A stretch of 64,000 nucleotides of DNA. Source: an uncultured Tateyamaria sp. Lineage in GTDB: Bacteria; Pseudomonadota; Alphaproteobacteria; Rhodobacterales; Rhodobacteraceae. The stretch covers positions 62,001 to 126,000 of the forward strand of contig NZ_CANMEU010000009.1 in NCBI RefSeq assembly GCF_947497045.1, read 5' to 3'. The notes beneath the pieces were generated by a model, which searched no databases, had not been told where the DNA came from, and saw nothing but the letters and a program-made list of their open reading frames with translations. The translations under genes and the position numbers were made by a program. Below are positions 10,891-44,108 of the stretch, in pieces (position 1 is the stretch's first letter; each line of letters opens with the position of its first letter).

Positions 10891-10911
10891 GGGCGCAGGA
10901 CACCTGCGCCC
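10891..10911 (+). repeat. 3'-end hairpin with ACA triloop (copy 1)
   Basis: Perfect 9-bp stem GGGCGCAGG/CCTGCGCCC around an ACA loop, followed by TACCCC, two bases after the dehydrogenase stop codon. Member of a four-copy family in this window (others at 15692, 30958 and 44088), all in the same sense relative to the gene they follow. No T tract. Confidence 0.75.
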
Positions 10912-10990
10912 TACCCCTCTGTTTCCCGCTGTAAATAATACCGCACATGCAGGGCTGGCTCCTGTTCCGCAGCCTGCTACATTGCAGCCC

Positions 10991-13429
10991 ATGTCCGCGC
11001 TCCCCCCTCAATTCACAGACTGGTTCACCGCAAAGGGTTGGTCGATCCATCCCCACCAACAGACCATGTTGGATCGCGCATCCGAGCCCGCCCTGCTGCT
11101 GATCGCCCCCACAGGCGGGGGCAAGACATTGGCCGGGTTCCTTCCGTCGCTGGCAGAGCTGAGCGATGGCACCCATGAGGGGCTGCACACGCTCTACATT
11201 TCGCCGCTCAAGGCGCTGGCCAGCGACATCAAACGCAACCTGCGCACGCCGGTCGACGAGATGGGCCTGTCGATCCGGATTGAGGATCGCACCGGCGATA
11301 CCTCGCAAACCCAAAAGAACCGGCAGCGCGCAGATCCCCCGCACATTCTGCTGACCACCCCCGAAAGCCTTGCCCTGCTCACCAGCTACGAGGACGCGCC
11401 GCGCATGTTTGCGGGCCTCAGGCGGGTGATTGTCGATGAAATCCACGCCCTTGCCGAAAGCAAACGGGGCGACCAGCTGTTTCTGGCGCTGGCGCGGTTG
11501 CAAAGCCTGTGCCCCGATCTGCGTCGTGTGGGCCTGTCCGCCACCGTCGAAGACCCCGGTGCCATCGCCCACCTTCTCGCCTGCCATCCCGATCCGTGCG
11601 CGATTTTGCAGGCCGATCCCGGCCCCCTGCCCGATATCAAGATGCTGGTCACGGACGAGGCCCCGCCATGGTCTGGCTCGGGGGGCAAATACGCGATCCC
11701 CGCCGTGCTCGAACAGGTCAAACAGCACAAAACCACACTGATCTTTCACAACACCCGCGCGCAGGCCGAGCTATATTTTCACAACATCTGGCTGGCCAAC
11801 AGTGACGGGCTGCCCATCGGCATTCATCACGGCTCGCTTGACCGCCAGCAGCGCGAAAAGGTGGAACAGGCCATGGTGGCAGGTGATCTCAAGGCCATCG
11901 TGTGCACAGGCACGTTGGATCTGGGGATCGACTGGGGCGATGTGGATCTGATCATTCAGGTCGGCGCGCCCAAGAACGTCAAGCGGCTGGTGCAACGGAT
12001 TGGGCGGGCCAACCACCGCTACAACGCGCCCTCAAAGGCGTTGCTGGTGCCCGCCAACCGGTTCGAGGTCGTGGAATGCGTCGCCGCGCTTGAGGCGGTC
12101 AAGGAAGGCGCGCTTGACGGTGACCCCCGCGGGCCGGGGCCGCGCGACGTGCTGTGCCAGCACATCCTGATCACCGCCGCTGCTGGCCCATTCGAGGCCG
12201 ACGCGCTTTACGCCGAGGTGATCACCGCCGGGGCCTACAGTACGCTCACCCGCGCCGAATTCGACGCCTGTATCGATTTTTGCGCAACGGGGGGCTATGC
12301 CCTGCGCGCTTACGACCAATGGCAACGCCTGCAACGGCGCGCCGACGGACAATGGCAATTACGCGATCCGCGCGCTGCCCAACGCATCCGCATGAACATC
12401 GGCACGATTCAGGACACAGATACGCTCAAGGTCCGCTTCAAGGGCCGGGGTGGCAAACCACTGGGCGAGATCGAGGAAGGGTTCGCCGCCACCCTCACGG
12501 CAGGCGATACATTCCTGATCGGGGGGCAAATTGTGCGTTATGACAGTTTGCGCGAAATGACCGTACAAGTGACACGTGACGCCGCCAAGAAGCCAAAGAT
12601 CGCCACCTTCTTAGGCACCAAGTTCGCCACCTCCACCCAACTCAGCCAACGCATCATCGAGATGTTTCAACAACCCGGTTGGCCCGAACTGCCCGCCCAC
12701 ACCGCTGAATGGCTGGCGCTGCAACGCAAGGTCTCGCGCCTGCCAGAGCCGGGTCGCCTGCTGATCGAAAGCTTTCCCCATGACGGGCGCGTGCACACCG
12801 CCGTCTACGGCTTTGCAGGGCGCAATGCGATGCAGACACTCGGGCTGCTGCTGACCAAACGGATGGAGGAAACCGGCCTCAACCCCCTGGGCTTTCTGGC
12901 GACCGACTATGCCACGCTGATCTGGGGGCTGGACCCGATCCGGGATCCGGGGCCGCTGTTCGACATTCAGTCCCTACGCGACGGGCTTGAGCGATGGCTG
13001 GCCGGGAACGCGGTGATGAAGCGGACCTTTCGTGCCTCAGCCACCATCGCGGGGCTGATCGAATGCAACACCCCGTCGGCGCGCAAATCGGGGCGACAGG
13101 CGACGTTCAGCTCCGATATCCTTTATGACACCCTGGCGAAATACGACCCCGATCACCTCATGCTCAACATTACCCGGCAGGAAGCGATGCGCGGCCTTGT
13201 CGATTTCGGGCGCATTGAGGAAATGTGCGCCCGCATCGAGGATCGCTTCGATCTGATCACGCTCGACCGTGTCACGCCGCTCGCCGCCCCGCTGATGCTG
13301 GAGGTGGGGCGCGTGCCCATCAAAGGGCTGGCCGAAGAAAAGCTGCTCGCCGAAGAAGCCGCGCGGCTGATGTCGACCGCAGGATTGCCACCCGAGCCCT
13401 CCAGGAAAGAATGGCGCGTTCCCTTCTAA
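10991..13429 (+). CDS. Ligase-associated DNA damage response DEXH helicase (Lhr type)
   Basis: 812-residue superfamily 2 helicase. Walker A APTGGGKT (about residue 39), DEIH box in VIVDEIHALAESKRGDQ, the SAT-like motif LSATVED, and the motif VI arginines in RLVQRIGRANHR. A long C-terminal Lhr-type region follows. Length and the adjacent PdeM gene match the family often found with an ATP-dependent ligase and an exonuclease; neither of those is in this window. Start taken at ATG 10991 (MSALPPQFTDWF); a TTG nine bases upstream is in frame but less likely. Confidence 0.92.
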   Translation: MSALPPQFTDWFTAKGWSIHPHQQTMLDRASEPALLLIAPTGGGKTLAGFLPSLAELSDGTHEGLHTLYISPLKALASDIKRNLRTPVDEMGLSIRIEDRTGDTSQTQKNRQRADPPHILLTTPESLALLTSYEDAPRMFAGLRRVIVDEIHALAESKRGDQLFLALARLQSLCPDLRRVGLSATVEDPGAIAHLLACHPDPCAILQADPGPLPDIKMLVTDEAPPWSGSGGKYAIPAVLEQVKQHKTTLIFHNTRAQAELYFHNIWLANSDGLPIGIHHGSLDRQQREKVEQAMVAGDLKAIVCTGTLDLGIDWGDVDLIIQVGAPKNVKRLVQRIGRANHRYNAPSKALLVPANRFEVVECVAALEAVKEGALDGDPRGPGPRDVLCQHILITAAAGPFEADALYAEVITAGAYSTLTRAEFDACIDFCATGGYALRAYDQWQRLQRRADGQWQLRDPRAAQRIRMNIGTIQDTDTLKVRFKGRGGKPLGEIEEGFAATLTAGDTFLIGGQIVRYDSLREMTVQVTRDAAKKPKIATFLGTKFATSTQLSQRIIEMFQQPGWPELPAHTAEWLALQRKVSRLPEPGRLLIESFPHDGRVHTAVYGFAGRNAMQTLGLLLTKRMEETGLNPLGFLATDYATLIWGLDPIRDPGPLFDIQSLRDGLERWLAGNAVMKRTFRASATIAGLIECNTPSARKSGRQATFSSDILYDTLAKYDPDHLMLNITRQEAMRGLVDFGRIEEMCARIEDRFDLITLDRVTPLAAPLMLEVGRVPIKGLAEEKLLAEEAARLMSTAGLPPEPSRKEWRVPF

Positions 13430-13460
13430 GCCTTTCATTGTTCCCAAAATACTCATTCAA
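13430..13460 (-). repeat. Interspersed intergenic element, core only (copy R6)
   Basis: Read on the minus strand this has the core TATTTTGGGAACAATGAAAG, close to the cores at 29822, 17614, 47204, 36881 and 56005. It lies directly after the helicase stop codon. The GC-rich half of the element is not present here. Confidence 0.45.
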
Positions 13461-13523
13461 TCCTCCACCCACATATCCACCCCATGACTTGAAGCGCGCG
13501 CCCGGCCAAACTATGAACAAAGA

Positions 13524-14186
13524 ATGAACATGTGTGATCTCACCTTTTGCGGCGCGGCGCTTAAGGCGCTTGGTTCGGGCGCGCTGTTCTGGCCTGCCGA
13601 AGGCGTCCTGTGCGTCTCGGATCTGCACCTTGGCAAAGCCGAACGGATCGCCCGGCGCGGCGGCGCTGCCCTCCCACCTTACGAAACCCGCGATACGCTC
13701 ACCAGACTTGCCACTGATCTTGAGGCCACACGGGCGCGTACGGTCATTTGCCTGGGTGACAGTTTCGATGATCTGGCAGCGGCCCGTGCCATGCCGGAGG
13801 AAGAGAGGCTGTGGATCACGCGGTTGCAGGCCGGACGGCGCTGGATCTGGATCGAAGGCAACCATGATCCCGGCCCGATTGAATATGGCGGCACGCATCT
13901 GGGCGAGTTGCACCTTGCCCCGCTGACTTTTCGCCACATCGCGCAGACGGGGAAAACGAGAGAGATTTCAGGGCATTACCACCCGAAAGCAACCTTGCAC
14001 ACTCGCGGGCGTGCCATAACGCGCCCCGCCTTTCTGATCGACAGCGACAAGCTGATCATGCCCGCCTATGGCACCTACACAGGTGGTCTGCGCAGCCATG
14101 ATGCAGTGCTGACGCGGATCATGCGCGCTGATGCGCGCGCCATTCTGACCGGCGCGCACCCCATCGAAATCCCCATGCCGCGTTAG
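13524..14186 (+). CDS. pdeM: Ligase-associated DNA damage response endonuclease PdeM
   Basis: 220-residue calcineurin-like metallophosphoesterase. Metal-binding motifs in order: [15 protein letters not shown] (DxH), CLGDSFDDL (GD), EGNHDPG (GNHD) and SGHYHPKA (GHxH). All expected ligands are present. Lies 94 bases after the Lhr-type helicase, its usual partner in a predicted DNA repair module. Start ATG 13524 overlaps a purine-rich ACAAAGA; a second ATG two codons on is possible. Its stop shares bases with the stop of folD on the other strand. Confidence 0.9.
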
Positions 14187-15085
14187 GCGGTCAGCCCTTC
14201 GGGTTCGGCCAAGCCGTTGGCGCGACAGCACGCTGTGACGGTGTTGGCCAGCAGGCAGGCGATTGTCATCGGCCCCACGCCGCCCGGCACAGGTGTGATG
14301 GCCCCCGCAACCTCGGCGCAGCTGTCAAAGGCGCAATCGCCCACAAGGCGGGTCTTGCCCTCACCCTTTTCCGGGGCGTCGATACGGTTGATCCCGACAT
14401 CGATCACGGTTGCGCCGGGCTTGATCCAGTCGCCTGTGACCATTTCAGGGCGACCCACCGCCGCCACCACAATGTCAGCAGCGCGGGTCACATCCTGAAT
14501 GTTCTTGGTGCGCGAATGGGCGATGGTGACGGTACAACTGTCGCCAAGCAGCAATTGGGCCATGGGCTTGCCCACGATGTTCGAGCGACCCACCACCACG
14601 GCATTGAGGCCCGAAAGATTGCCGTAATGATCACGCAGCATCATCAAACAACCCAACGGCGTGCACGGCACCATTGATTTCTGCCCCGTACCAAGCAGAC
14701 CCACATTCGAGATGTGAAACCCATCGACATCCTTGGCCGGATCGATGGAATTGATCACCAGATCCTCGTTCAAATGCCCCGGCAAGGGCAGCTGTACGAG
14801 GATGCCATGGATGGCAGGATCACCGTTCAAATCAGCTATCAACGCCAGCAGATCCACCTCGGACGTGTCAGCATCCAGCCTGTGCTCAACCGAGGTCATG
14901 CCAACCTCGACGGTCATCTTGCCTTTGGAGCGGACGTAGACCTGACTGGCCGGATCCTCACCGACCAGCACCACTGCCAAACCGGGCGTAATGCCGTGAC
15001 CCGCCTTCAGCCGGGTCACATGCTCGGCCACCTTGCCGCGCACAGTTGCCGCAAACGCCTTGCCATCGATGATCGTCGCACTCAT
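14183..15085 (-). CDS. folD: Bifunctional methylenetetrahydrofolate dehydrogenase/cyclohydrolase FolD
   Basis: 300 residues. Interconverts 5,10-methylene-, methenyl- and 10-formyl-THF in the cytoplasm. Seen: the active-site region YVRSKGKM with the catalytic lysine, the conserved [12 protein letters not shown], the DGFH segment, [17 protein letters not shown] for NADP binding, and the PGGVGPMT C-terminal motif. Start chosen at ATG 15085 (MSATIIDG) because AAAGGA lies 8 bases upstream; a GTG two codons earlier is in frame. Upstream on the same strand are an unknown gene and fhs, so this is a one-carbon cluster. Confidence 0.97.
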
Positions 15086-15097
15086 GCACACATTCCT

Positions 15098-15577
15098 TTA
15101 GTTTCGAACAAAAGTGACCTCATGCGACCATGTCTCGCCATCACTGACCACCAGCGTGTCGAATTCCATGAATTGCAAAAGGTCGTAAAACGTCGCCACG
15201 AATTGCAGATTCTGCTGGCGGAAAAAGTCGTTGTTGCGCATGTTTGACGTCATTTGGGCCAAGACGGCGCGGGCGCGGTAGATGGACGAAAACACCTCGT
15301 CATCCAGCGCAATGACGGTCAGATGGCGGGCATCATCGCCTTTGGCAAAGAACACGAAGCGCGGACTTTCGGGGGCGGCCAATTGGGCCACGGTCAGGTT
15401 GGTGACAAACTCGACACGGACCGCCTTGCTGGATTGCGGGGCCTCGCGGATGACGCGGGTAAAGTTCTCTGTCGATGTGATCTCGGGATAATAATAGCCG
15501 GCGTAGCGGTCACTTGCGGCTGCAAAAGTGGTGGTCACGGCCAGCGTGGCAATAATGATGGCGATCAATCGGGTCAT
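15098..15577 (-). CDS. Uncharacterised secreted protein between fhs and folD
   Basis: 159 residues. A signal peptide with cleavage near TFAAAS (about residues 18-22) predicts a periplasmic protein; the rest is mixed alpha/beta without a motif I recognise, and no cysteine pair. Only 12 bases separate its stop from the folD start, so the two are probably co-transcribed. Similar proteins occur in Rhodobacteraceae and have sometimes been given misleading molybdopterin-related names; nothing in the sequence supports such a function. Confidence 0.7.
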   Translation of the reverse strand: MTRLIAIIIATLAVTTTFAAASDRYAGYYYPEITSTENFTRVIREAPQSSKAVRVEFVTNLTVAQLAAPESPRFVFFAKGDDARHLTVIALDDEVFSSIYRARAVLAQMTSNMRNNDFFRQQNLQFVATFYDLLQFMEFDTLVVSDGETWSHEVTFVRN

Positions 15578-15691
15578 GGAACAGTCCTTTGGCGGTTTTC
15601 AATTGACGGGCAGGCTGACCGGATGATCTGGCAATTTCAATCGGATTGAGCGGTGTTGCCCAAAACGTGAGGGCAGCGAAACATGGTCGTA

Positions 15692-15712
15692 AGGCGGGCG
15701 TGTCGCCCGCCT
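15692..15712 (-). repeat. 3'-end hairpin with ACA triloop (copy 2)
   Basis: Perfect 9-bp stem AGGCGGGCG/CGCCCGCCT; on the minus strand, the sense of fhs, the loop is ACA and the sequence after the stem is TAC. Lies 13 bases after the fhs stop codon and before the next gene. Confidence 0.75.
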
Positions 15713-15725
15713 CCCTCATCTCAGT

Positions 15726-17402
15726 TCAGAACAGCCCTTCGATCTGGCCGCTCTCATTGAGGTGGATGTTTTCAGCCGACGGCACGCGGGGCAGACCCGG
15801 CATCGTCATAATCTCACCGCACACAGCCACGATGAACCCGGCCCCGGCAGACAAGCGCACCTCGCGCACAGGTACTGAGAACCCGGTTGGTGCACCGCGC
15901 AACGTGGGATCGGTCGAAAAGCTGTACTGCGTTTTCGCCATGCAGACCGGCAGATGGCCATAACCCTGCTCTTCCCACAGTTTCAACTGGCCCAGTATCT
16001 TTTGATCCATCAACGCCCCATCCGCGCGGTAGATCTTTTTGGCAATTGTTTGCACCTTCTCGGCCAGCGGCATCTCATCGGGATAGATCGGGGCAAAGTT
16101 CGAGGTGTCCGCATCGGCCAGTTCGGCAACCTTGGTGGCCAGATCGGCGGACCCTTCGGAGCCCAACTCCCAGTGCCGCGACAGGATCGCCTCGGCCCCT
16201 TGTTCGGCCACGAAATCCTTCACAGCCTGCACTTCGGCGTCCGTATCGGTGACAAAGTGGTTGATCGCGACAACAACCGGCACCCCAAAGGATTGCAGGT
16301 TCTCGATATGTCGACCCAGATTCGGGCAACCTGCTTTGACCGCGTCCACATTTTCGGCACCCAGATCGGCCTTGGCCACGCCGCCGTTCATCTTCATCGC
16401 ACGCACCGTGGCGACGCAGACCACAACCGACGGGGCAAGGCCCGCCTTGCGGCACTTGATGTTCATAAATTTCTCGGCCCCCAGATCGGCACCAAAGCCC
16501 GCCTCGGTCACCACATAATCCGCCAGTTTCAGCGCCGTGGTTGTCGCAATGACCGAGTTACAGCCATGCGCGATATTGGCAAACGGGCCGCCATGCACGA
16601 AGGCGGGGTTGTTTTCCAGCGTCTGCACGATGTTGGGCTGCATCGCATCCTTGAGCAGGACGGTCATAGCGCCATCGGCCTTGATGTCGCGTGCAAAGAC
16701 CGGGCTGCGATCCCGGCGATAGGCCACGATCATATCGCCCAGACGTTGCTGCAGGTCCTTGAGGTCCTTGGCCAGACACAGGATGGCCATCACTTCAGAG
16801 GCGACGGTGATGTCAAAGCCCGCCTCGCGGGGGAAACCATTGGCCACACCGCCAAGGCTCGCCGTGATCTGGCGCAAGGCACGGTCATTCATGTCGACCA
16901 CCCGGCGCCACACGACGCGGCGGGTGTCGATGTCGAGTTCATTGCCCCAGTAGATGTGGTTGTCGATCATCGCGCTCAGCAGCGAATGGGCCGAGGTGAT
17001 AGCATGAAAGTCGCCCGTAAAGTGCAGGTTCATCTCTTCCATGGGCACGATCTGCGCGTAACCGCCCCCCGCAGCACCGCCCTTCATGCCAAAGTTCGGA
17101 CCCAAAGACGCCTCGCGAATACACACGCAGGCATTCTTGCCAATGCGGTTCAACCCGTCGCCCAGACCCACGGTCGTGGTCGTCTTACCCTCGCCTGCGG
17201 GCGTGGGGTTGATGGCCGTGACGAGGATCAGCTTGCCATCGGCGCGGTCTTGAACCGAGTTGATGAAGGACTGGCTGACCTTGGCCTTGTCGTGGCCATA
17301 AGGCAGCAGATCATCACTGGAAATCCCCAGCTTGGCCCCAATCTCCTGGATCGGCTTCTTTTGCGCTTCACGCGCGATTTCGATGTCGGATTTATAGGCC
17401 AT
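15726..17402 (-). CDS. fhs: Formate--tetrahydrofolate ligase
   Basis: 558 residues, the usual length. Makes 10-formyl-THF from formate, THF and ATP. The P-loop [18 protein letters not shown] is visible near residue 65, with conserved [11 protein letters not shown] and [13 protein letters not shown] segments. Start set at ATG 17402 ([14 protein letters not shown]), preceded by GGGGAG; a longer reading adds 19 residues without family support. With folD it would supply C1 units for purine and serine/glycine metabolism, or in marine roseobacters oxidise C1 units from methylated compounds. Confidence 0.97.
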
Positions 17403-17522
17403 GATGCTCCCCGCAAGGTCGTAGTGGACATGTAACTCGTGGCCTGCATACAGCCGCATGCCTAGGGATCATGCGCGCAATTCCGACATTTCAGCGCGAT
17501 GTAGCGGCCCAGTTGGGGCTAT

Positions 17523-17542
17523 AGGTTTCATTTCGGAAACCT
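17523..17542. repeat. Inverted repeat upstream of fhs
   Basis: Perfect 7-bp repeat AGGTTTC/GAAACCT with a 6-base loop, about 120 bases upstream of the fhs start. A 12-base palindrome CCCTTTAAAGGG lies further upstream at 17571-17582. Either could be an operator or part of the 5' leader; nothing identifies a regulator. Confidence 0.35.
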
Positions 17543-17613
17543 GTGACGCGCGCCGGGGCTTGAGTTTCGCCCCTTTAAAGGGTGGACCAAGGCGATAAGC
17601 GGCGCACGCCCGG

Positions 17614-17671
17614 CCCCTTCCTTTCGCCAAAAATACCACGGGGGAGGCCGCAGGCCGGGGGCGGCGCCCCC
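17614..17671 (-). repeat. Interspersed intergenic element (copy R1)
   Basis: Read on the minus strand: a GGGGGCGCCGCCCCC hairpin, a GGCC/GGCC hairpin, then the core TATTTTTGGCGAAAGGAAG. It is nearly identical over about 58 bases to 47204-47263. It begins 8 bases after the stop of the MOSC gene, so the first hairpin could act as its transcript end. Confidence 0.7.
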
Positions 17672-17678
17672 ATCTTCC

Positions 17679-19091: not shown

Positions 19092-19111
19092 TTATTTATG
19101 TAGCTGGCCGA

Positions 19112-29878: not shown

Positions 29879-30913
29879 TCAGTCAAACAAATCGCCCCCG
29901 GATTTGGGCGGTTCGAGGCCCAGATGACGCCAGGCCCGCGGCGCGAGCATCCGGCCACGCGGGGTGCGCTGGATCAGGCCCTGCTGCAACAGATAGGGCT
30001 CGATCACTTCCTCCAGCGCATCGCGGCTTTCGCTGAGGGCCGCGCTGAGCGTTTCGACCCCAACCGGGCCACCGCCATAGTGCTCGGCTATTAACGACAG
30101 ATAGCGCCGATCCGCGCCATCCAGCCCCAGATGATCAACGCCAAGCCGGGTCAGGGCCGCATCCGCCAGTGCCTGGGTCACACGGCCATCGCCATCGACC
30201 ACCGCAAAGTCCACGACCCGACGCAACAGACGGCCCGCGATACGGGGCGTGCCCCGGGCGCGGCGGGCAATCTCGCGCGCACCGCCTTCATCCGCGGGGG
30301 CCCCCAGTTTGCGGGCATTGCGCTCGACAATGCTGAACAACTCGTCCTCGGTGTAAAATTGCAGCCGTGTCGGAATCCCAAAGCGGTCGCGCAGCGGCGT
30401 CGTCAACAGACCCATCCGCGTGGTCGCCCCCACCAGCGTAAAGGGCTGCAATTCGATGCGCACGGTGCGGGCCGCCGGGCCTTCGCCGATCACAAGGTCC
30501 AGTTCAAAATCCTCAAGGGCGGGATAAAGAACCTCTTCGACGACCGGGTTCAGGCGATGGATTTCATCGATAAACAACACATCACGCGCTTCAAGGTTGG
30601 TCAGGATCGCAGCCAGATCGCCCGCCTTGGCCAGCACAGGGCCTGAGGTCATGCGAAAGTTCACCCCCAACTCACGCGCCATGATCTGGGCCAGCGTCGT
30701 CTTGCCCAAACCGGGGGGGCCGTGAAACAGGGTGTGGTCCATCGCCTCTTCGCGCTGGCGGGCCGACTGGATAAAGACGCGCAGATTTGCACGGGCCTCG
30801 GCCTGCCCGACGAAATCCTCAAGCATTTGAGGACGCAGGGCGCGATCAAAGCCGCCGGCCTCGTCCTCGGGCAAGGGGGCGGGGCGCAATGTCGGGTCGG
30901 AAGCGTCAGTCAT
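29879..30913 (-). CDS. ruvB: Holliday junction branch migration helicase RuvB
   Basis: 344 residues. Walker [15 protein letters not shown] at about 64-77, Walker [16 protein letters not shown], and sensor region [19 protein letters not shown]. The C-terminal winged helix ends with [12 protein letters not shown]. Hexameric motor of RuvABC. Lies 68 bases after ruvA, with two hairpins in the gap. Confidence 0.98.
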
Positions 30914-30929: not shown

Positions 30930-30949
30930 GGCACCCATGATACGGTGCC
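30930..30949. repeat. Hairpin between ruvA and ruvB
   Basis: Inverted repeat GGCACC/GGTGCC with an 8-base loop, located 17 bases upstream of the ruvB start; no T run. It could lower or modulate ruvB expression relative to ruvCA. Confidence 0.4.
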
Positions 30950-30957
30950 CATTGTAA

Positions 30958-30976
30958 GGCGGAGGTGTCCTGCGCC
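30958..30976 (-). repeat. 3'-end hairpin with ACA triloop (copy 3)
   Basis: On the minus strand GGCGCAGG-ACA-CCTCCGCC, followed by TTAC, 4 bases after the ruvA stop. One internal mismatch. Same sense relative to its upstream gene as the copies at 10891, 15692 and 44088. Confidence 0.7.
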
Positions 30977-30980: not shown

Positions 30981-31637
30981 CTACCCTTTCGGGGCCAGCA
31001 GTTTCAACGCAGCACGGATCAGCGCGGGCGTCTCTGCCTCTGGCGCGTCACCCGCCGCCTGCGCCACAGCCGCAGCCGCATCCGACGGGCCATAGCCCAG
31101 ATTGCCCAGGGCCGACAGCGCATCCGCCTGCGCGGTGGACGGCGCGGCCTGAACAGGCACGGGTTCGATCACCTGCGTCTCGTCGGCAGGGACCTCGCCC
31201 AAGGCCTGTGCCACCGTGCCGCCCATCGCCATGACACTGGGGGCCTTGTCCTTGAGATCCAGCACGATGCGCTGCGCGATCTTGGGGCCAATGCCCTTGG
31301 CCGCCTTCACCGCGCTCCAGTCCCCAAGGGCAATCGCACGGCTGACCCCGTCAGTGCCAAGCGTGCCAAGGATCGCCAGCGCGGCCTTTGCACCAACGCC
31401 CTGCACCGACATCAGCAAGCGATGCCATTCCTTCTCGGCAAGGGTCGGAAACCCGAACAACTGCATCAGATCCTCACGCACCACGAGGTCCGTAAACAAG
31501 GCACAGGGTTGACCGACGCCGGCCAACCCCGCCATGGTGCGTTCCGAGCAATACACGAGATAACCCACACCGCGCACGTCGATCAGGACATGATCCGCCG
31601 CGCGGTAATCGATCCGGCCCGTCAGCTTGCCAATCAC
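30981..31637 (-). CDS. ruvA: Holliday junction-binding protein RuvA
   Basis: 218 residues. N-terminal OB fold ([20 protein letters not shown]), the two helix-hairpin-helix motifs in [15 protein letters not shown] and [14 protein letters not shown], and a C-terminal domain III after a Pro/Ala/Gln linker. Starts at a GTG that overlaps the ruvC stop (GTGA); the long in-frame extension upstream overlaps ruvC and is not homologous. It directs RuvB to junctions. Confidence 0.95.
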
Positions 31638-35552: not shown

Positions 35553-35553
35553 G

Positions 35554-36920: not shown

Positions 36921-36975
36921 TTCTGCGCAAGGATCGGGTTGAGTGTTGGTGCGATCTTGCCTGATAGTGGTGTCC

Positions 36976-37431
36976 ATGAAGCTGCGCGATATCCAGACTC
37001 AATTCGGGGCACTGACCCTGACCGAAGACAAGGGCGCGATTGTACGTCTGAGTTGGGGGGTGTCGGGATCCAAGGAACGCTCGGACGTGCTGGATGCGGC
37101 GGCCCGGCAATTGGCCGAATATGATGCAGGCACCCGCGAGCAGTTTGATTTGCCCCTGGCTGTGGGGGGATCACAGTTGCAGCGCGATGTGTGTACAGCG
37201 ATGTCTGCGATTCCGTTTGGATATACGGTGACTTATGGCGATATCGCCAAGGAGTTGGGCGTGCCCGCCCAGGCAATCGGTCAGGCCTGCGGCGGCAATC
37301 CCATTCCGATCATCATTCCCTGCCACCGTGTGATGGGCGCAAAAGGTCTGACCGGGTTTTCGGGGGCGGGCGGCGTTGAAACCAAGGTCGCCCTGCTGCG
37401 CCATGAGCGTGCGGGCGGCTATCTGATCTAG
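36976..37431 (+). CDS. ogt: Methylated-DNA--protein-cysteine methyltransferase
   Basis: 151 residues. The active-site motif IPCHRV places the acceptor cysteine at residue 116, with the DNA-binding helix YGDIAKELGVPAQAIGQA before it. Repairs O6-alkylguanine. N-terminal domain is short; no Ada-type regulatory part. Start taken at ATG 36976 (MKLRDIQTQFG). Its stop overlaps that of pcs in a CTAG. Confidence 0.93.
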   Translation: MKLRDIQTQFGALTLTEDKGAIVRLSWGVSGSKERSDVLDAAARQLAEYDAGTREQFDLPLAVGGSQLQRDVCTAMSAIPFGYTVTYGDIAKELGVPAQAIGQACGGNPIPIIIPCHRVMGAKGLTGFSGAGGVETKVALLRHERAGGYLI

Positions 37432-38120
37432 CGCGCGGTAGGGATCAATTGCTGGGCCAGCCCCGCAAACACCAGATAGACCGACGTGATCACCAGCCCC
37501 CAATGCGCCCAGCTTTCGGGATGGAAATCGACCCACGCGGCCCAACCGGCAAAGAACGTCCAGGCCAGGGCCATCGGCAATGTCAGCATCCGCCAGCGTT
37601 CCGTACGCACGGGGTGCACAAACTTGATCGGCAGGAACATCCCCACCGCCAGCACACTGACCAGTGCAAGACTGACCCAGAAATTGGGTTCCAGCGCAAA
37701 GATAACCAGGACCACCATATTCCAGCATCCCGGAAAGCCAGAGAATGAATTGTCCTTTGTTTTCATGCGGGTGTCCGCAAAGTACATGGCCGAGGCAAAG
37801 GTGATCAGGATGATTGCGACCCAGCCTGTCCAGCCCGCCATCAGCCCCGATGCAAACAGTGCAAAGGCGGGAATGAACACATAGGTCAGGTAGTCGATGA
37901 TCAGATCGAGCAGCACGCCATCAAATTCCGGCGCGTTGGTTTTCACATCATATTTGCGTGCAAGCGGTCCATCGATCCCGTCCACAAAGAAAGCCACCAC
38001 CAGCCACAGGAACATCAAATCCCATTTGGCTTGTACTGCCGCCAGCATGGCCAGCATCGCAAATACGGCACCTGTGGCGGTCAATAAGTGAACGGCAAGT
38101 GCGCGCATCTGAACAGTCAT
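37428..38120 (-). CDS. pcs: Phosphatidylcholine synthase
   Basis: 230 residues, CDP-alcohol phosphotransferase family with about eight membrane segments. The catalytic motif DGIDGPLARKYDV, GVLLDLIID with the aspartates in the expected positions, and the KTNAPEFDG insert are typical of Pcs, which makes phosphatidylcholine from CDP-diacylglycerol and choline. Start ATG 38120 (MTVQMRALAVHLL) has GAGGG upstream. Common in alphaproteobacteria with phosphatidylcholine membranes. Confidence 0.93.
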   Translation of the reverse strand: MTVQMRALAVHLLTATGAVFAMLAMLAAVQAKWDLMFLWLVVAFFVDGIDGPLARKYDVKTNAPEFDGVLLDLIIDYLTYVFIPAFALFASGLMAGWTGWVAIILITFASAMYFADTRMKTKDNSFSGFPGCWNMVVLVIFALEPNFWVSLALVSVLAVGMFLPIKFVHPVRTERWRMLTLPMALAWTFFAGWAAWVDFHPESWAHWGLVITSVYLVFAGLAQQLIPTAR

Positions 38121-38213
38121 GGTGCCCTCATTATCTATCTGAGGCAGGCTTGCAAATGCAAAACCGCGCCGAAGGTGCACCCGGCGCGGCTGTGTCTCGC
38201 AGTAAAAGAGGGT

Positions 38214-38795
38214 TTATTGCCCCAGACGGACCTCTGGGACCGGATAGCCCAGAAAATCCTGTGCTTCCCATCCGGCATGGCAGTCATGGCAGAAGGATTG
38301 CTTGATCTTCATCACCTTGCCGTTGGGTTGCAGGCCCGCATAGAGCCAGCCTGCCGTATCAGGGGCCTCGTCCAAGCCCACTTTGGTCATAATAAAGAGC
38401 GGCCCCGGGCGCGCGGCCTTTTTCTTGATCGACACGGTGATCGATTCCTTGGCCAGCACGGACCCGATCGGCATTTCAACGCCTTCTTCCTCGAACTTGA
38501 GGTACTGTTCGGCGGCCACATCATTGGCATATGTGTTCAACAGCCGGTTGCCATGCGGTCCGGCCACGGCAGGACGCGATGCGGTGGCAGCCCAACTGCG
38601 ATAGTTGGTCGCGATTTCGTCGCCCTCTTTGGCATAGCCCGTGGCCATCTTTTCCTGAAGGCATTCGTAAAGGCCATCGATCTGCGCTTCGGTCAGATCA
38701 AAGGCATCCTCGACGGTGATAGCGGTGCAGTCCTGGGCGCTTGCAGCCCCTGCTGTCAGCGTCAACGCTGCGGCCATCGCAAATTTACGGATCAT
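38214..38795 (-). CDS. Cytochrome P460 family protein
   Basis: 193 residues. Signal peptide to about AASAQ (residues 1-20), a mixed-structure domain, and the haem-binding CHDCH at about residues 169-173, near the C-terminus as in cytochrome P460 and cytochrome c'-beta. Those proteins bind NO or oxidise hydroxylamine; the residues that cross-link haem to lysine cannot be judged without alignment. Periplasmic. Start ATG 38795 is 31 codons inside a longer open frame. Confidence 0.82.
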   Translation of the reverse strand: MIRKFAMAAALTLTAGAASAQDCTAITVEDAFDLTEAQIDGLYECLQEKMATGYAKEGDEIATNYRSWAATASRPAVAGPHGNRLLNTYANDVAAEQYLKFEEEGVEMPIGSVLAKESITVSIKKKAARPGPLFIMTKVGLDEAPDTAGWLYAGLQPNGKVMKIKQSFCHDCHAGWEAQDFLGYPVPEVRLGQ

Positions 38796-38936
38796 ATGGT
38801 ATCCCCTAGATAGTGGTGTGGTGTCCCGAATGTGCGGTGGAATACCGCGGTTCACCTCTGCCACAGACGGGGACAAATGGCGCATCACCTTGATGCACGT
38901 TTACGTGAGTGCGCCACGCGCGCGCAGGCCGCGTGC

Positions 38937-38962
38937 GCCCTATGCCTTGGCCCTATGCCTTG
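38937..38962. repeat. 13-base tandem duplication at the 3' end of xerC
   Basis: CCCTATGCCTTGG occurs twice in direct succession, the second copy covering the last codons and stop of xerC. It duplicates the C-terminal PKA and stop context. Looks like a slippage event. Confidence 0.6.
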
Positions 38963-39873
38963 GGATGGGCACGGGCGTAGACATCCATCAGCCGGGCGGT
39001 GTCCACAGCCGTGTAGGCCTGGGTTGTGGACAGTGAGGCATGCCCCAGAAGTTCCTGGATCGCGCGCAGATCGCCGCCCGCGTTCAGCAGATGCGTGGCA
39101 AAGCTGTGGCGCATCGCGTGGGGTGTGGCCGAGGCGGGCAGCCCCAGTTGCATCCGCGCGGATGCCATCGCCTTCTGAATGGCGCGCGGGGCCAAGGCTC
39201 CGCCCCGGATTGCCCGGAACAAGGGCCCGTCATCCGGCAAATCGTAAGGGCAGCCCGCGATATAGGCGTCAACGGCCTGCCGGGCGGCGTCGATCACCGG
39301 CACGATCCGTTCCTTGCCACCCTTGCCGGTGATCCGCATCACTTGGGGCAGCGGTGCATCCGAGCCTTGCAGGCTCAGCGCTTCGGATATGCGCAACCCG
39401 CAGCCCCAGAGCAAGGTCAGCACAGCCGTGTCGCGCAGGCCCACCCATGGTTGCGTGGATTGCAGCGGCGCGATCTCAAGCAAATCGCGCGCCGCCTCTT
39501 CGGCCAGCGGGCGGGGCAGCTTCTTGGTGAACTTGGGCGCGCGGGTGCTGAGGACTGCTGTCGGCTCAAACCCTTCACGCTGGCTGAGCCATTTGTAAAA
39601 CGCCTTGACCGCGGACAGCTTGCGCGCCAGCGAGCGTGGCCCCACCTCGCCGGACCGCGTACGCGCCATCCATGCCCGCATGTCTCGTGTCGTGATTCGC
39701 GCCAGCGCGCCAAGGCCCTGGGTCTGGCCCGAATGGTCGGTCATAAAGGTCAGAAATTCGGTGATATCGCCGCCATAGGCCAGTACCGTGTTGTCCGCCG
39801 CCCCTTTGATACTGCGCTGATGCGCCAGAAACGTCTCCAGCGCGTCGCGGGCAGCAGCGGATATCAGGCTCAT
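38953..39873 (-). CDS. xerC: Tyrosine recombinase XerC
   Basis: 306 residues. Catalytic residues visible: R161 (GLRISEAL), K183 (GKGGKERIV), H251 and R254 (HAMRHSFATH), H277 (LLGHASL), Y286 (TTQAYT). Chromosome dimer resolution at dif. The start overlaps the stop of the DUF484 gene, as in the E. coli yigA-xerC arrangement. The N-terminal SAM-like DNA-binding domain covers residues 10-95. Confidence 0.94.
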   Translation of the reverse strand: MSLISAAARDALETFLAHQRSIKGAADNTVLAYGGDITEFLTFMTDHSGQTQGLGALARITTRDMRAWMARTRSGEVGPRSLARKLSAVKAFYKWLSQREGFEPTAVLSTRAPKFTKKLPRPLAEEAARDLLEIAPLQSTQPWVGLRDTAVLTLLWGCGLRISEALSLQGSDAPLPQVMRITGKGGKERIVPVIDAARQAVDAYIAGCPYDLPDDGPLFRAIRGGALAPRAIQKAMASARMQLGLPASATPHAMRHSFATHLLNAGGDLRAIQELLGHASLSTTQAYTAVDTARLMDVYARAHPKA

Positions 39874-40577
39874 CCCAACCAGCGCCGCATGGCCCGTTCA
39901 AACACGCCTGCGAAAAAGGCCAGCAAGTCCGTGCCCTGTTGAGGGCCAAACATGTGCGGGTCTTCGGCCCCCATGACCAGCAGGCCCGGCAAACGCCCAT
40001 CACCAAAGTCGAGCTTGAGGCAGGCCTCGGACCGGATCCAGCTGCCGTCATTGCCATAAACGGCCGTATCGGCATCCTGCACCTGGCGCAAAGTGACCTG
40101 GCGCACCGCACCACCACGCCCTTGGGTCAGGTAGTCATCGATAAAGCCTGGCTCAACAGCCGTAAGCACATCGCCGAGGCGTTTCACAGCCGGATCATTG
40201 TCGTTCTGCACCGATTCAAGCAGCAGCTTGACCGCATCGACCCGCAGGATTTCGGCCACTTCGCCGCCCAGATCGCGCAAGAACGCTTCGAACTCCAGCG
40301 GGTCAAGCATCCGCAATATCGCACGGTGGATTTGATTGGTGCCCGCAAGATTTTCGTAAGCCGCCGCAATGACCGAACGATGCGTATCCTCAAGGCGATC
40401 AAGCCGCGCCTCAAGCCGTTCCATCGCCAGCCCACGCAGATCGACGATGTTGCCACCCATCGCACGTTCGTTTGCGGCGATCAGGGCGTGCATCAGATCC
40501 TTGTCGTCCAGGATTACGTCCGGACGGCTAATAATCGCCTCACGCAGGGCGTCATCAATCTTGGGTTGGCTGCTCAT
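39870..40577 (-). CDS. DUF484 family protein, upstream partner of xerC
   Basis: 235 residues. A GAF-like fold with an N-terminal coiled stretch (ERLEARLDRLEDTHRSVIAA), typical of DUF484. Function unknown; conserved next to xerC. Start ATG 40577 (MSSQPKIDDAL) follows family length; a longer reading overlaps low-quality intergenic sequence. Confidence 0.88.
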   Translation of the reverse strand: MSSQPKIDDALREAIISRPDVILDDKDLMHALIAANERAMGGNIVDLRGLAMERLEARLDRLEDTHRSVIAAAYENLAGTNQIHRAILRMLDPLEFEAFLRDLGGEVAEILRVDAVKLLLESVQNDNDPAVKRLGDVLTAVEPGFIDDYLTQGRGGAVRQVTLRQVQDADTAVYGNDGSWIRSEACLKLDFGDGRLPGLLVMGAEDPHMFGPQQGTDLLAFFAGVFERAMRRWLG

Positions 40578-40858
40578 ACCGTACTCATATTTATTTTGGG
40601 CATGTTCTAGCACATCGCCTCCCGGAAATCTGCCCCGAACTTGGATGAATTGGCCGCAATGGGCGCGCTGTTGCCGGCGCGCGTCAGGCACGGGGAAGTT
40701 GTATCGCGTTCTCCCCGTGATGGAGAGCGCGGCACCTGCCATATCCGCCCCATGACACAGACACCGCTCGCTGCCACTCACGGAGGGGATCCAAGGATTT
40801 TTCCATTGGATCCCCAAGCATTGCGCGTGTTGCTAAGGCGGGCCGGAAATACCTGAAT
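40578..40858. other. Intergenic region upstream of the DUF484 gene and downstream of fsa
   Basis: 281 bases without a credible gene. It contains a perfect 10-bp inverted repeat at 40785-40815 and must hold the promoter of the DUF484-xerC pair. A 71-codon plus-strand ORF here has no family features. Confidence 0.45.
40785..40815. repeat. Perfect inverted repeat after fsa
   Basis: GGGGATCCAA at 40785-40794 and its exact complement at 40806-40815 with an 11-base loop that itself can pair weakly. It is 44 bases downstream of the fsa stop on the minus strand and lacks a T run, so it is not a standard intrinsic terminator. Confidence 0.6.
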
Positions 40859-41512
40859 TTACAGAATTTTCTGACCCGTCTTGGCCCAGTCCTTCATAAA
40901 CTGGTCAAGGCCCGCATTGGTCAACGGGTGCCCCGCCAGCTTCTTGATGACCTCGGGCGGCGCGGTGATCACGTCGGCCCCGATCATGGCGCATTGGGTG
41001 ATGTGCCCGACCGAGCGGATCGAGGCCGCCAGGATCTCGGTTTCAAACCCATAGTTGTCATAAATGGTGCGGATATCTTCAATCAGGTCCATGCCATCGA
41101 TGTGGATATCGTCCAGACGTCCGATAAAGGGCGAGATGAACGAGGCCCCCGCCTTGGCCGCCAGCAGCGCCTGATTGGCCGAGAAACACAAGGTCACATT
41201 GACCATTTTGCCTTCACCCGTCAGCACTTTGCACGCCTTGAGACCATCCCATGTCAGCGGCAGCTTCACAGTGATGTTGTCGGCGATTTCGGCCAGCTTG
41301 CGCCCTTCGGCAATCATCGCGTCTGCCTCCAGCGCGACCACTTCGGCACTCACGGGGCCGTCAACCAGATCGCAGATTTCCTTGGTGACTTCGAGGATAT
41401 CCCGGCCCGATTTCAGGATAAGCGAGGGGTTGGTCGTGACCCCGTCCACCATTCCCAGATCGTTGAGTTCTGCGATGGCGTCAATCTCGGCTGTATCGAC
41501 AAAGAATTTCAT
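40859..41512 (-). CDS. Fructose-6-phosphate aldolase / transaldolase
   Basis: 217 residues, the short TalC/FSA subfamily. The Schiff-base lysine is K83 in [15 protein letters not shown] and SPFIGRLDD are further signatures. It either transfers dihydroxyacetone groups in the pentose phosphate route or cleaves fructose 6-phosphate; sequence alone does not decide between the two. Divergent from priA, 91 bases away. Confidence 0.93.
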
Positions 41513-41603
41513 GTGCGGCCCCTCTTGATGGCTTGGCGTTTGCTCAGGCAGCGTTTACCTCATGGCGGGTGATGCTGAAACCCCCTGATACCGTGGCCGC
41601 ACC

Positions 41604-43796
41604 ATGAGCCTTTCGTTTTTTGACGAAGGTGCGTTGGTGGCCGTGCTGACCACGCAACCGCTGGACCGGGCGCTGGATTACAAAGCGCCCGAAGGCGGCT
41701 GCCATCTGGGTGCATTTGTCGAAGTGCCCTTGGGCCCGCGCAAGGTGATCGGCGTGGTGTGGGGGCCGGGCAAGGGCGACTATGACTATACCAAGGTCCG
41801 CCCGGTGATCCGGGTGCTGGACGTGGCCCCGATGCGGCTGGAAATGCGGGAGTTTCTGAGCAAGGCTGCGGCCTATACCCTCACCCCGATGCCGGCGATG
41901 CTGCGCCTTGCCACCCGCGCCCCCGGCCTTGGCGATCCGCCATCGATGCGCAAGATCTATCGCCGTGGCCCATCCGAGCCAGACCGGATGACCGATGCGC
42001 GCGCCCGCGTCTTGGATTTTCTCGCCGAATACGGCGATCTGGCATTTACGTTGAAAGAGCTGGCGGAACTCTCCGGCGTCACCTCCTCAGTCATCAAGGG
42101 GTTGGTCAAACACGGTGCCGTCGCCGAAGAGGACAGCCCCCGCGACCTGCCCTTTCCACCTCTTGACCCCGAACGCCCCTCAAAAGAGTTGACCACCGAT
42201 CAGGCCCATGCGGCGGATGTGATCGGATCCGCTGTCGCCTCGGGCAATTACGGCACAACCTTGCTGCGCGGTGTGACCGGGTCGGGCAAGACCGAAGTCT
42301 ATCTTGAGGCCGTCGCCGCCTGCCTGCGCGTGGGCCGTCAGGCGCTGGTCTTGCTGCCCGAGATTGCGCTAACGGCAGAGTTCCTCACGCGGGTCGAAGC
42401 CCGGTTCGGTGCCCGCCCTGCCGAGTGGCATTCCGGGGCGACCATGACCGAGCGCCGCCGCATCTGGCGCATGGTCGGACAGGGGCAGGCGCAGCTTGTG
42501 ATCGGGGCACGCTCGGCCCTGTTTCTGCCCTATCAGAACCTCGGGCTGATCGTCGTGGATGAAGAACACGACACCTCCTACAAGCAGGAAGACGGGGTGC
42601 TGTATAATGCGCGCGATATGGCCGTGCTGCGCGCCTCGCTGCTTGGCGCGCAGGTGGTGTTGGCCTCGGCCACGCCATCGCTTGAAAGCTGGGCCAATGC
42701 CGAAAGCGGCAAATACACCCGCCTTGATCTTGAGGCCCGGTTTGGTCCTGCCGTCATGCCCACGATGCAGACCATCGACATGCGGACTGAGACGTTGCCC
42801 TCAAACCGGTGGGTATCTGACACGCTGAAACGCGCCGTTGATCAGCGCCTTGAAGCGGGCGAGCAGGCGATGCTGTTTCTGAACCGGCGAGGCTATGCCC
42901 CCATCACGCTCTGTCGCGCCTGCGGTCATCAGGTGGGCTGCGATCAGTGCGACGCGCGGATGGTCGAGCACCGGTTCCTGAAACGCCTCATGTGCCATCA
43001 ATGCGGCGAGACGAAGCCGATGCCGACCACCTGCCCCTCTTGCGAGGCCGAGGACCGCATGGCCCCTGTTGGCCCTGGTGTCGAGCGGCTTGGCGAAGAG
43101 GCGGCAGCCCTGTTTCCCGATGCCCGCGTGGCGGTGCTGAGTTCGGACATGTACGGGTCGGCTCGCGCGCTGAAGGCCGAGATCGAGAGCATCGCGGCGG
43201 GCGGTGCGGACGTGGTGATCGGCACGCAGCTGGTCGCCAAGGGGCACAACTTTCCCAACCTGACCCTCGTGGGGGTGATCGATGCCGATCTGGGCTTGCA
43301 AGGCTCGGATCTGCGCGCCGCCGAGCGAACGTTTCAGCTGATGCGCCAGGTCGCAGGTCGTGCCGGGCGTGCCGAGAAACCGGGCACGGCGATGATGCAG
43401 ACTTTTCAACCCGAACACCCCGTGATCCGCGCCATTCTGGCGGGGGATGAGGAAGGGTTCTGGCGCGCCGAAGCCGCCGAGCGCGAGGCGGCAGGCGTGC
43501 CGCCCTATGGGCGCATGGCGGGGATCATCCTGAGCGGGCCGGATGTGGCGCAGGTGTTCGATGCGGCGAATATTCTGGCACGCAACGCACAGGCGCTCAC
43601 CCGCGTGGGGGCGCAAGTGTTCGGCCCCGCCCCCGCCCCCATCGCGCGGGTGCGCGGACGGCACCGGGTGCGATTGCTGGTCAAGGCGGGCAAGGGTGTG
43701 GCGCTGCAAGGCGCGATCGCGCAGTGGATCGCGCCGCTGAAGCTGAAAGGGGACCTGCGACTGGCCGTCGATATTGACCCGCAGAGTTTTTACTAG
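41604..43796 (+). CDS. priA: Primosomal helicase PriA
   Basis: 730 residues. Walker A GVTGSGKTEVYL, DEEHD box in IVVDEEHDTSYKQ, and zinc-binding cysteines in CRACGHQVGCDQC followed by CHQCG and CPSC. Motif VI region QLMRQVAGRAGRAEKPG is intact. Restarts stalled replication forks. The N-terminal DNA-binding domain is present (residues 1-100). Start ATG 41604. Convergent with a DUF3253 gene, 23 bases apart. Confidence 0.97.
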   Translation: MSLSFFDEGALVAVLTTQPLDRALDYKAPEGGCHLGAFVEVPLGPRKVIGVVWGPGKGDYDYTKVRPVIRVLDVAPMRLEMREFLSKAAAYTLTPMPAMLRLATRAPGLGDPPSMRKIYRRGPSEPDRMTDARARVLDFLAEYGDLAFTLKELAELSGVTSSVIKGLVKHGAVAEEDSPRDLPFPPLDPERPSKELTTDQAHAADVIGSAVASGNYGTTLLRGVTGSGKTEVYLEAVAACLRVGRQALVLLPEIALTAEFLTRVEARFGARPAEWHSGATMTERRRIWRMVGQGQAQLVIGARSALFLPYQNLGLIVVDEEHDTSYKQEDGVLYNARDMAVLRASLLGAQVVLASATPSLESWANAESGKYTRLDLEARFGPAVMPTMQTIDMRTETLPSNRWVSDTLKRAVDQRLEAGEQAMLFLNRRGYAPITLCRACGHQVGCDQCDARMVEHRFLKRLMCHQCGETKPMPTTCPSCEAEDRMAPVGPGVERLGEEAAALFPDARVAVLSSDMYGSARALKAEIESIAAGGADVVIGTQLVAKGHNFPNLTLVGVIDADLGLQGSDLRAAERTFQLMRQVAGRAGRAEKPGTAMMQTFQPEHPVIRAILAGDEEGFWRAEAAEREAAGVPPYGRMAGIILSGPDVAQVFDAANILARNAQALTRVGAQVFGPAPAPIARVRGRHRVRLLVKAGKGVALQGAIAQWIAPLKLKGDLRLAVDIDPQSFY

Positions 43797-43819
43797 CGGC
43801 GTGATCCGAAGACCAGTTC

Positions 43820-44083
43820 TCAGGACGAAACAGGACCTGACGGCAAACCAAGACGAATGGGGCCCTTGGTCAAAGGCACCGAGACAGGCGCGCCTTTCTG
43901 CGTCACGCTAACCTGACCCGCATCGGCAAGGGCTTGGGCGACACGTCTGACGTGGGGCATCAACGCGCGCCAGTCTTGTGGCGACAGGCTGCGTGCCACC
44001 TCCGAGGGGCAGATGGTCTTCCCTACCCCTCGCCGCACAACTGCGTCCAAAATGGCCGCTTGGATATGCTGATCATCCGTCAT
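43820..44083 (-). CDS. DUF3253 family protein
   Basis: 87 residues. The family pattern AILDAVVRRGVGKTICPSEV and DWRALMPHVRRVAQALADAG, ending in a KGPIRLG motif, is complete. Winged-helix-like by appearance. Function unknown. Start ATG 44083 directly follows the hairpin at the ileS 3' end; the gene may depend on read-through from ileS. Confidence 0.85.
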   Translation of the reverse strand: MTDDQHIQAAILDAVVRRGVGKTICPSEVARSLSPQDWRALMPHVRRVAQALADAGQVSVTQKGAPVSVPLTKGPIRLGLPSGPVSS

Positions 44084-44087
44084 GGTA

Positions 44088-44108
44088 AGGCGGAGGTGTC
44101 CTCCGCCT
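44088..44108 (-). repeat. 3'-end hairpin with ACA triloop (copy 4)
   Basis: Perfect 9-bp stem AGGCGGAGG/CCTCCGCCT; on the minus strand the loop is ACA. The TAG stop codon of ileS is inside the stem, and the start ATG of the DUF3253 gene follows 4 bases after it. Same sense as the other three copies. Confidence 0.78.

Follow-up and report, generated by a model that had tools for sequence, protein, structure and literature searches.

A Tateyamaria family of REP-like palindromes placed directly past stop codons, with a possible role as transcribed 3'-end hairpins

The window, that is, the whole 64,000-nucleotide stretch of DNA from an uncultured Tateyamaria sp. that we analysed, contains four hairpins with an ACA triloop at the 3' ends of genes, all present at the positions, and in the gene sense, given by the original prediction. 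Hairpin 1 (10891 to 10914, plus strand; stem GGGCGCAGG/CCTGCGCCC, ACA loop, and a TAC tail that reads CTAC with the last stem base) starts 2 nt past the TGA codon of a gene for an NAD-binding, 3-hydroxyisobutyrate dehydrogenase-like protein (10100 to 10888, plus strand; PF03446 and PF14833), which scores below all NCBIfam cut-offs listed. The other three are on the minus strand. Hairpin 2 (15689 to 15712; stem AGGCGGGCG/CGCCCGCCT, ACA loop, TAC tail) lies 13 nt past the stop codon of fhs, encoding formate--tetrahydrofolate ligase (15726 to 17459, minus strand). Hairpin 3 (30954 to 30976; GGCGCAGG/CCTCCGCC with one C.C mismatch, ACA loop, TTAC tail) is located between ruvA (30981 to 31637, minus strand) and the co-directional ruvB directly downstream (29879 to 30913, minus strand); 4 nt separate it from the stop codon of ruvA and about 40 nt from the start of ruvB. 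The stem of hairpin 4 (44085 to 44108; AGGCGGAGG/CCTCCGCCT, ACA loop, TAC tail) overlaps the TAG stop codon of ileS (44107 to 47028, minus strand). The gene names assigned earlier agree with our family searches, which were clear for FTHFS, RuvA, RuvB, and IleS; the gene calls come from a small purpose-written gene finder and not from annotation, and their stops are more reliable than their starts, which are rough.

When the window was searched with the pattern GTARGGCGNNGGTGTCCNNCGCC allowing up to 3 mismatches, we found 4 matches compared with a shuffle mean of 0.09, and 0 of 100 shuffles reached 4. Across the window, no Rfam family matched at gathering score. The predicted RNA fold of hairpin 1 has a free energy of -20.5 kcal/mol (z -5.0), while the ruvA hairpin has the weakest predicted fold among the four (z -1.9).

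The four hairpins belong to a family that in gene sense reads GGCG-NNNN-ACA-NNNN-CGCC-TTAC (23 nt); its stem has 8 bp, its triloop is usually ACA, and its tag is GTAA (TTAC in gene sense). A genome-wide search with GTARGGCGNNNGTGTCNNNCGCC and up to 2 mismatches hit 101 places, and the backward control hit 0. The suggestion of a small REP-like family was therefore right about the family but not about its size, as this genome holds about 90 to 101 copies of the 23-nt form; 4 of 89 copies fall inside called genes. The strict form occurs in 16 of 20 Tateyamaria genomes, with 82 copies in this genome (G000) and 77 in a second species (G159), and in none of the other four (G154, G157, G161, and G163). 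When one genome per genus was sampled across the taxonomic family, it was found in 1 of 149, the one being this genome, so that the strict form is nearly restricted to the genus. We also scanned 747 kb of sequence from 19 relatives de novo, ileS anchor sites included, for any GTA[AG] tag with a perfect stem of at least 7 bp, and obtained 41 noncoding matches and 1 coding match. The noncoding hairpins carried GTAA in 37 cases and GTAG in 4, although the scan was open to both, and 35 of the 41 start with GTAAGGCG. Among these 35, the loop was ACA in 20, making the loop less constant than the tag; the higher ACA counts obtained elsewhere (260/306 and 82/91) come from searches that favour ACA. We dropped loop and tail constancy in the 306-copy search as evidence, because its pattern fixed 15 letters, those of the loop and tail included, and tolerated no more than two deviations from them. 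Within this genome, 89 of 91 copies end in TTAC and 2 in CTAC.

The copies are not placed at random. In this genome, 67 of 89 begin at -8 to +20 nt relative to a stop codon and have the orientation originally reported, compared with 16 of 89 in the opposite sense and a chance level of 0.082, the placement controls being intergenic positions within the same loci. The de novo set behaves in the same way (26/41 with the tag distal to the gene near a stop, 7/41 with the tag proximal), and the bias is weaker in an independent sample of named loci (69/139 sense, 22/139 antisense). That sample covers the 77 loci left after three from other taxa (L128, L146, and L204) had been removed; 6 of the 77 come from a MAG labelled Shimia and 1 from an Ascidiaceihabitans MAG. 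Its count takes two-sided tags twice and includes a few coding false positives. Among 91 copies in this genome, there are 11 pairs of neighbours within 100 nt, all with the tags inside and none of any other kind, the arrangement expected if the members of a pair serve two converging genes, one each. A palindrome with a constant tag could also be a DNA-level binding site for gyrase, a nucleoid protein, or another protein that came to lie at gene ends by chance, and a passage in PMC6006769 names gyrase among the things linked to REPs. We see only a slim chance of this, as a DNA site would not explain why the copies are oriented one way relative to the gene before them or why they start at -1 to +14 nt past the stop.

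The original prediction that these hairpins are not ordinary terminators is borne out, since a T run is absent 3' of all four window hairpins and one copy lies between ruvA and ruvB. Among 66 stop-adjacent copies, the base after the TTAC tail is G in 62% and T in 2%. We also considered that the hairpins might be terminators of a non-canonical kind that need no T run and, where genes converge, perhaps work in both directions. Consistent with this idea, a converging gene lies opposite 37 of the 65 stop-adjacent copies, and a T-tailed terminator follows 7/65 copies as against 25/133 other gene ends, a difference that is not significant (p 0.22). However, besides the missing T run and the ruvA/ruvB copy, 10 of the 65 have a co-directional gene beginning within 75 nt, and downstream of at least three copies (L002, L038, and L061) there is a distinct T-tailed terminator other than a partner copy of the family. 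The ordinary terminator is ruled out by the missing T run, the intercistronic copy, and these separate downstream terminators, and we consider the non-canonical version very unlikely.

By analogy with E. coli, where REPs nearer than 16 nt to the stop affect translation (Liang et al. 2015, as described in part of PMC12306157), a stable hairpin lying 15 nt or less from the stop might slow terminating ribosomes and lower expression. In favour of such termination control, 64 of 89 copies start -1 to +14 nt after the stop, which is the proximity feature of the E. coli-type translation-control REPs. On the other hand, the bare palindrome is predicted to fold nearly alike either way (-16.9 and -17.4 kcal/mol for the ileS copy in the two orientations), so stalling alone would leave the orientation and the constant TTAC tail unexplained. 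As the whole explanation, we regard it as unlikely.

Comparison of two species showed that orthologous copies are maintained. Between G000 and G159, 35 orthologous pairs are 98.0% identical and 22 fully so, a figure that covers only copies matching the pattern in both species, while identity is 66.2% for the 12 upstream nt, 57.3% for the 25 downstream nt, and 84.9% for coding DNA. In the 34 pairs that are 23 nt long, the 11 middle letters that the search pattern leaves free show 96.0% identity. Since the hairpins hardly differ while their flanks have diverged, something maintains the copies. Of 43 sites in G000 with orthologous flanks in G159, 8 have no pattern match there (1 coding false positive, 1 a single base off the pattern, 2 decayed, and 4 absent or unalignable); in the reverse direction, 7 of 43 sites lack a match. 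Past close relatives, site turnover is high. The ruvA site has an orthologue in 18 relatives and the ileS site in 19. By eye, about 10 of 20 genomes keep the ileS hairpin with at most 2 changes, 5 hold decayed relics, and 5 have nothing related; the ruvA site is without a hairpin in 6 of 19 genomes, in which ruvA and ruvB are 3 to 6 nt apart. The turnover at ileS and the 4 of 20 genomes without the strict form indicate that no single copy is essential.

The two arms of the stem change together: the covariation score is 0.399 compared with 0.131 in shuffles and at most 0.103 when slid, in a count of 93 rows that are mostly paralogues. Thus, on the sequence side, neither random placement nor missing covariation was seen here, and arm changes that keep the pairing are strongly supported as originally claimed. 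The further suggestion that they reflect selection on RNA structure does not follow. If selection acts on sense-strand pairing, an excess of G-U pairs is predicted in mismatched sense stems, and its absence counts against such selection: over 93 distinct sequences, we counted 14 G-U and 28 A-C pairs, the 32 sequences with one non-Watson-Crick pair had 11 G-U and 10 A-C, and the 306-copy set had 33 A.C and 14 G.U. G-U intermediates as proof of RNA-level action are therefore unsupported, and the paired changes could also come from DNA-level correction of the palindrome. The RNA-level action proposed below is one that we infer.

The REPs of E. coli have a dedicated RAYT. We found no Y1 (RAYT-type) transposase in this genome or in G159. 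Y1_Tnp matches are present in 4 of 20 genus genomes, one of them scoring under the cut-off, and do not visibly track copy number. The four above-cut-off Y1 loci examined in the genus are without a family copy or tagged hairpin, while the below-cut-off locus has one. On inspection by eye, G152 (L353) has a Y1 gene of IS200-like appearance. We reject a classic RAYT-driven REP, as no Y1 gene was found in this genome and no family copy near the above-cut-off loci examined. Another reading holds that the repeats are selfish or relict DNA without present function, once copied by a single-stranded DNA (HUH/Y1-type) transposase that favoured gene ends in one orientation, with the paired changes arising by template switching in the palindrome. 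The restriction of the expansion to the genus would fit, as would the discrete subfamilies, one of which shares the same C.A mismatch at three G000 loci as if copied, and the six genomes without the ruvA hairpin and with a short ruvA-ruvB gap. The sense A.C pairs, moreover, are G.T in the GTAA strand, to which an enzyme of the TnpA type would bind. Alleles with and without a hairpin, compared at several sites that include ruvA, fhs, and folD, revealed no clean insertion junction or target duplication. Against this account stand the transposase results and the 98% identity of orthologous copies whose flanks have diverged by at least one third, and we hold it to be doubtful.

Taken together, these results establish that the family exists, how far it ranges, where and in which orientation its copies lie, that its arms covary, and that copies at orthologous sites of two species are conserved. 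The reading that we favour, to which we give about an even chance of being correct, is that a Tateyamaria REP-like palindrome originally multiplied as a short DNA element, either mobile or copied, and is at present selected as a transcribed hairpin that starts directly past the stop, with the tag on the side facing away from the gene. Within the mRNA, it would most likely act as a 3'-end or intercistronic hairpin that blocks 3'-to-5' exonucleases a few bases past the stop, so that trimmed transcripts would retain the stop codon; as it lies no more than 15 nt from that codon, a slowing of terminating ribosomes may come on top. Protection of mRNA 3' ends would be part of this proposed role. A more specific possibility, which we think decidedly unlikely, is that the element was domesticated after transposase loss into a genus-specific post-transcriptional 3'-end mark, a UUAC-tailed hairpin (usually with an ACA loop) at the stops of dozens of genes that a dedicated RNA-binding protein or nuclease would read as a regulon-like set under selection. 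REP elements are usually treated as mobile or neutral DNA, and their functions are disputed. Nearly the same 23 letters at the same stops in two species, in diverged surroundings and mostly in one orientation, point to a present function for a REP-like repeat, and the copies form a natural set of sites for telling apart 3'-end protection, termination, and ribosome effects.

Among known systems, the closest in form are repeats of the GTAG-tagged REP superfamily, described in the sections of Di Nocera et al. 2013 (PMC3733652) that we draw on as palindromes of 20 to 40 bp with an end tetranucleotide tag (degenerate at positions 2 and 3), a high copy number, and dimers, lying mostly downstream of genes, in many cases under 20 bp from the 3' end, with complementary stem changes between subfamilies. 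As far as that description goes, the Tateyamaria family is likewise a short, many-copy, mostly extragenic palindrome with an end tag and subfamilies, and it forms inverted dimers (the 11 tag-inside pairs). It differs in that its tag is mostly GTAA and not GTAG, in that no RAYT/Y1 gene flanked by its repeats was found, and in that its copies are mostly tag-distal directly past the stop, nearly confined to a single genus, and 98% identical between orthologues of two species. The E. coli REP/BIME elements, as far as they are described in the source cited above, are also palindromic repeats near 3' ends; the Tateyamaria repeats are shorter, and the E. coli elements do not share their placement: among 28 REPs detected by motif, and hence a sample, in 300 kb of MG1655, 1 was tag-distal and 5 were tag-proximal within -8 to +20 nt of a stop. 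With intrinsic (Rho-independent) terminators, the family shares a strong hairpin past the gene, but the Tateyamaria hairpins are without a T run, have a constant tag, and can be intercistronic. Finally, GTAGGGTGGG...CCCACC palindromes, found in 53 of 149 genera of the same taxonomic family and in 19 copies in this genome, resemble the Tateyamaria repeats in size, architecture, and one-end tag, but differ in the stem and carry GTAG. Their stop-adjacent copies number 1 of 30 in each sense in G018, whereas 9 of 25 copies in G005 and 15 of 22 in G053 lie tag-distal within -8 to +20 nt of a stop.

The four hairpins of the window (G000:C9:62001-126000), which follow a dehydrogenase-like gene, fhs, ruvA (before ruvB), and ileS, are present as the original prediction described them. 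On the opposite strand, an 8-9 bp hairpin comes after a tetranucleotide tag, giving the form GTA[A/G]-GGCG-NNNN-TGT-NNNN-CGCC. When up to two mismatches to the 23-nt family pattern were allowed, 101 places were matched in the genome carrying the window (G000, an uncultured Tateyamaria sp.; 4.24 Mb, 54 contigs), 54 forward and 47 reverse, and a backward control of the pattern matched none. A wider pattern with the middle length left free gave 137 matches versus 50 in the control, showing that family variants with other loops exist, such as GTAAGGCGGATCCTGATCCGCC. We also searched 747 kb of relatives independently of the family sequence, accepting every GTA[AG] tag adjoining a mismatch-free stem of 7 bp or more, and obtained 41 noncoding matches and 1 coding match. 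The tag was GTAA in 37 of the 41 noncoding matches and GTAG in 4; 35 start with GTAAGGCG, and 20 of those 35 have the ACA (TGT) loop. The hairpin family is real and non-random.

Placement was counted with gene calls made in this analysis; a copy is in the sense orientation (tag-distal) when its tag points away from the gene whose stop codon adjoins. In the first count, 66 of 91 distinct G000 copies follow a stop codon in the predicted sense, at -1 to +19 nt. When the gene calls were self-trained and the pattern slightly altered, the recount placed 67 of 89 copies in sense within -8 to +20 of a stop and 16 in the opposite sense, with 4 of the 89 inside called genes. Since random intergenic positions fall near a stop at 0.082 per strand, the sense count corresponds to a binomial p of about 1e-53. 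Eleven copy pairs within 100 nt were found among the 91 copies, every pair with its tags inside. In independent material, the sense bias is present but weaker than in G000: 27/48 sense versus 7/48 antisense in syntenic stretches and 69/139 versus 22/139 at named loci, with 3-4% expected by chance in this material. The stop codon is supplied by the tag itself, at distance 0, in 17 of these 22 antisense cases. Near stops, the noncoding matches of the family-independent search were tag-distal in 26/41 and tag-proximal (antisense) in 7/41.

The predicted variation of the arms with pairing kept was borne out across 93 distinct 23-mers: 93.8% of cells are paired versus 77.0% in shuffles, 110 cells are changed on both arms versus 36.4, and the covariation score is 0.399 versus 0.131 shuffled and at most 0.103 in slid controls, in a set of mostly paralogous copies whose preselection (6 or more Watson-Crick pairs out of 8) favors pairing and for which the tally does not represent independent events. 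Joint change of both arms occurred at two ortholog sites, L041/L161 and L050/L306.

Sequence maintenance, orientation, and a start no more than 15 nt from the stop point to a transcript-level role for the hairpins. The intercistronic ruvA-ruvB copy and the missing T runs argue against plain terminators. A post-stop hairpin would halt 3'-to-5' exonucleases short of the stop codon, and it could slow terminating ribosomes, analogous to E. coli REPs, which are reported to do so when closer than 16 nt to the stop (PMC12306157). For the ileS copy, a near-symmetric palindrome, the predicted folding energies of the two orientations are nearly equal (-16.9 and -17.4 kcal/mol). The one-sided placement must therefore come from the tag or the loop, or else from bias in the insertion process. 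No G-U enrichment was found among the sense-strand mismatches of the hairpins, which counts against the RNA-level reading. G-T pairs are, if anything, better tolerated in the GTAA strand, which would be consistent with that strand having once been recognized as single-stranded DNA. The search of G000 for a Y1 transposase gave no match. The above-cut-off Y1 transposase genes of Tateyamaria, in three other genomes (loci L353 and L357 in G152, L354 in G162, and L355 in G154), have no family hairpins alongside, nor any tagged hairpin within these loci. The Y1 copy in L353 looks IS200-type.

The strict pattern was found in 1 of 149 genomes representing one genus each of the same bacterial family, namely G000 with 82 copies. 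Within Tateyamaria, 16 of 20 genomes have it, at 1 to 82 copies each. At least 103 stretches matched across 84,980 scanned species representatives; among the 80 loci listed, 70 are labeled Tateyamaria, 6 come from one MAG labeled Shimia, 1 from an Ascidiaceihabitans MAG, and 3 are strays.

Between G000 and a second Tateyamaria species (G159), the two compared in detail, hairpin sites are steady. Available orthologous flanks allowed 43 of 94 G000 sites to be compared; G159 carries a pattern-matching copy at 35 of these and none at 8. In the reverse direction, 43 of 61 sites could be compared and 36 of them match. The 35 ortholog pairs are 98.0% identical (22 fully); identity is 66.2% in the immediate upstream DNA, 57.3% in the immediate downstream DNA, and 84.9% at the coding end. 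Because the search pattern fixes the outer letters, the 96.0% identity of the middle 11 letters (15 differences in 374) is the fairer figure. At one place, L344 in G000 (G000:C6:122000-141999) and L305 in G159 carry different hairpins, GGGCGGGCGACACGCCCGCCTTAC in one species and GTGGGCAGATTGCCCACCCTAC in the other, with a tail of the same kind, CTAC in G000.

Across the genus, sites judged by eye are gained and lost. At ileS, 10/20 genomes carry the hairpin with two changes at most, 5 carry a decayed relic, and 5 carry none or an unrelated sequence; at ruvA, the hairpin or a close variant is present in 10/19, decayed or other hairpins are found in 3, and in the other 6 ruvA and ruvB are just 3-6 nt apart. 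After the fhs stop, where G000 has a GGCG hairpin, the species G158 and G157 have palindromes ending GCACCCTAC, that of G158 being GTAGGGTGCGC-type. An inverted repeat, GGCACC-CATGATAC-GGTGCC, lies at 30930-30949 of the window between the family hairpin and ruvB and was not seen at the corresponding G159 place. The repeat CTTTTGACCAAAAATACCGCGGGG occurs at 9 of 433 loci examined, 7 in G000 (L019, L022, L028, L034, L044, L048, and L066) and 2 in G159 (L332 and L342); it begins 7-17 nt past the tail of the hairpin, with the same orientation, in 5 of these 7 G000 loci.

Searches limited to open-licence PMC papers yielded no publication on this family. Tagged REPs are described as usually located past the 3' end of a gene, in many cases at a distance under 20 bp, and as forming subfamilies with complementary stem changes (Di Nocera et al., PMC3733652), and the hairpin placement is partly ordinary REP behavior. 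By contrast, of 28 REPs detected in 300 kb of E. coli MG1655, 1 was tag-distal within -8 to +20 of a stop and 5 were tag-proximal (Fisher p about 4e-12 versus Tateyamaria for the tag-distal count). GTAG-tagged palindromes of the form GTAGGGTGGG...CCCACC occur in 53 of 149 genera of the same bacterial family, with a maximum of 166 copies per genome, 19 in G000, and 3 control matches in the whole survey. Among copies in the fetched stretches of three other genera, tag-distal stop-adjacent placement exceeded the other orientation in two (15/22 versus 3/22 in G053; 9/25 versus 3/25 in G005), while G018 had 1/30 in each. Many of the G018 palindromes (L398-L427) are paired about 250-315 bp apart, as if bounding larger elements. 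The tag-away, stop-adjacent arrangement may therefore be a general tendency across the wider bacterial family that different sequences convey. Two features that define REPs, the GTAG tag and RAYT association, were tested, and neither characterizes the hairpins; they are therefore not filed as GTAG-REPs, and the family is best called REP-like.
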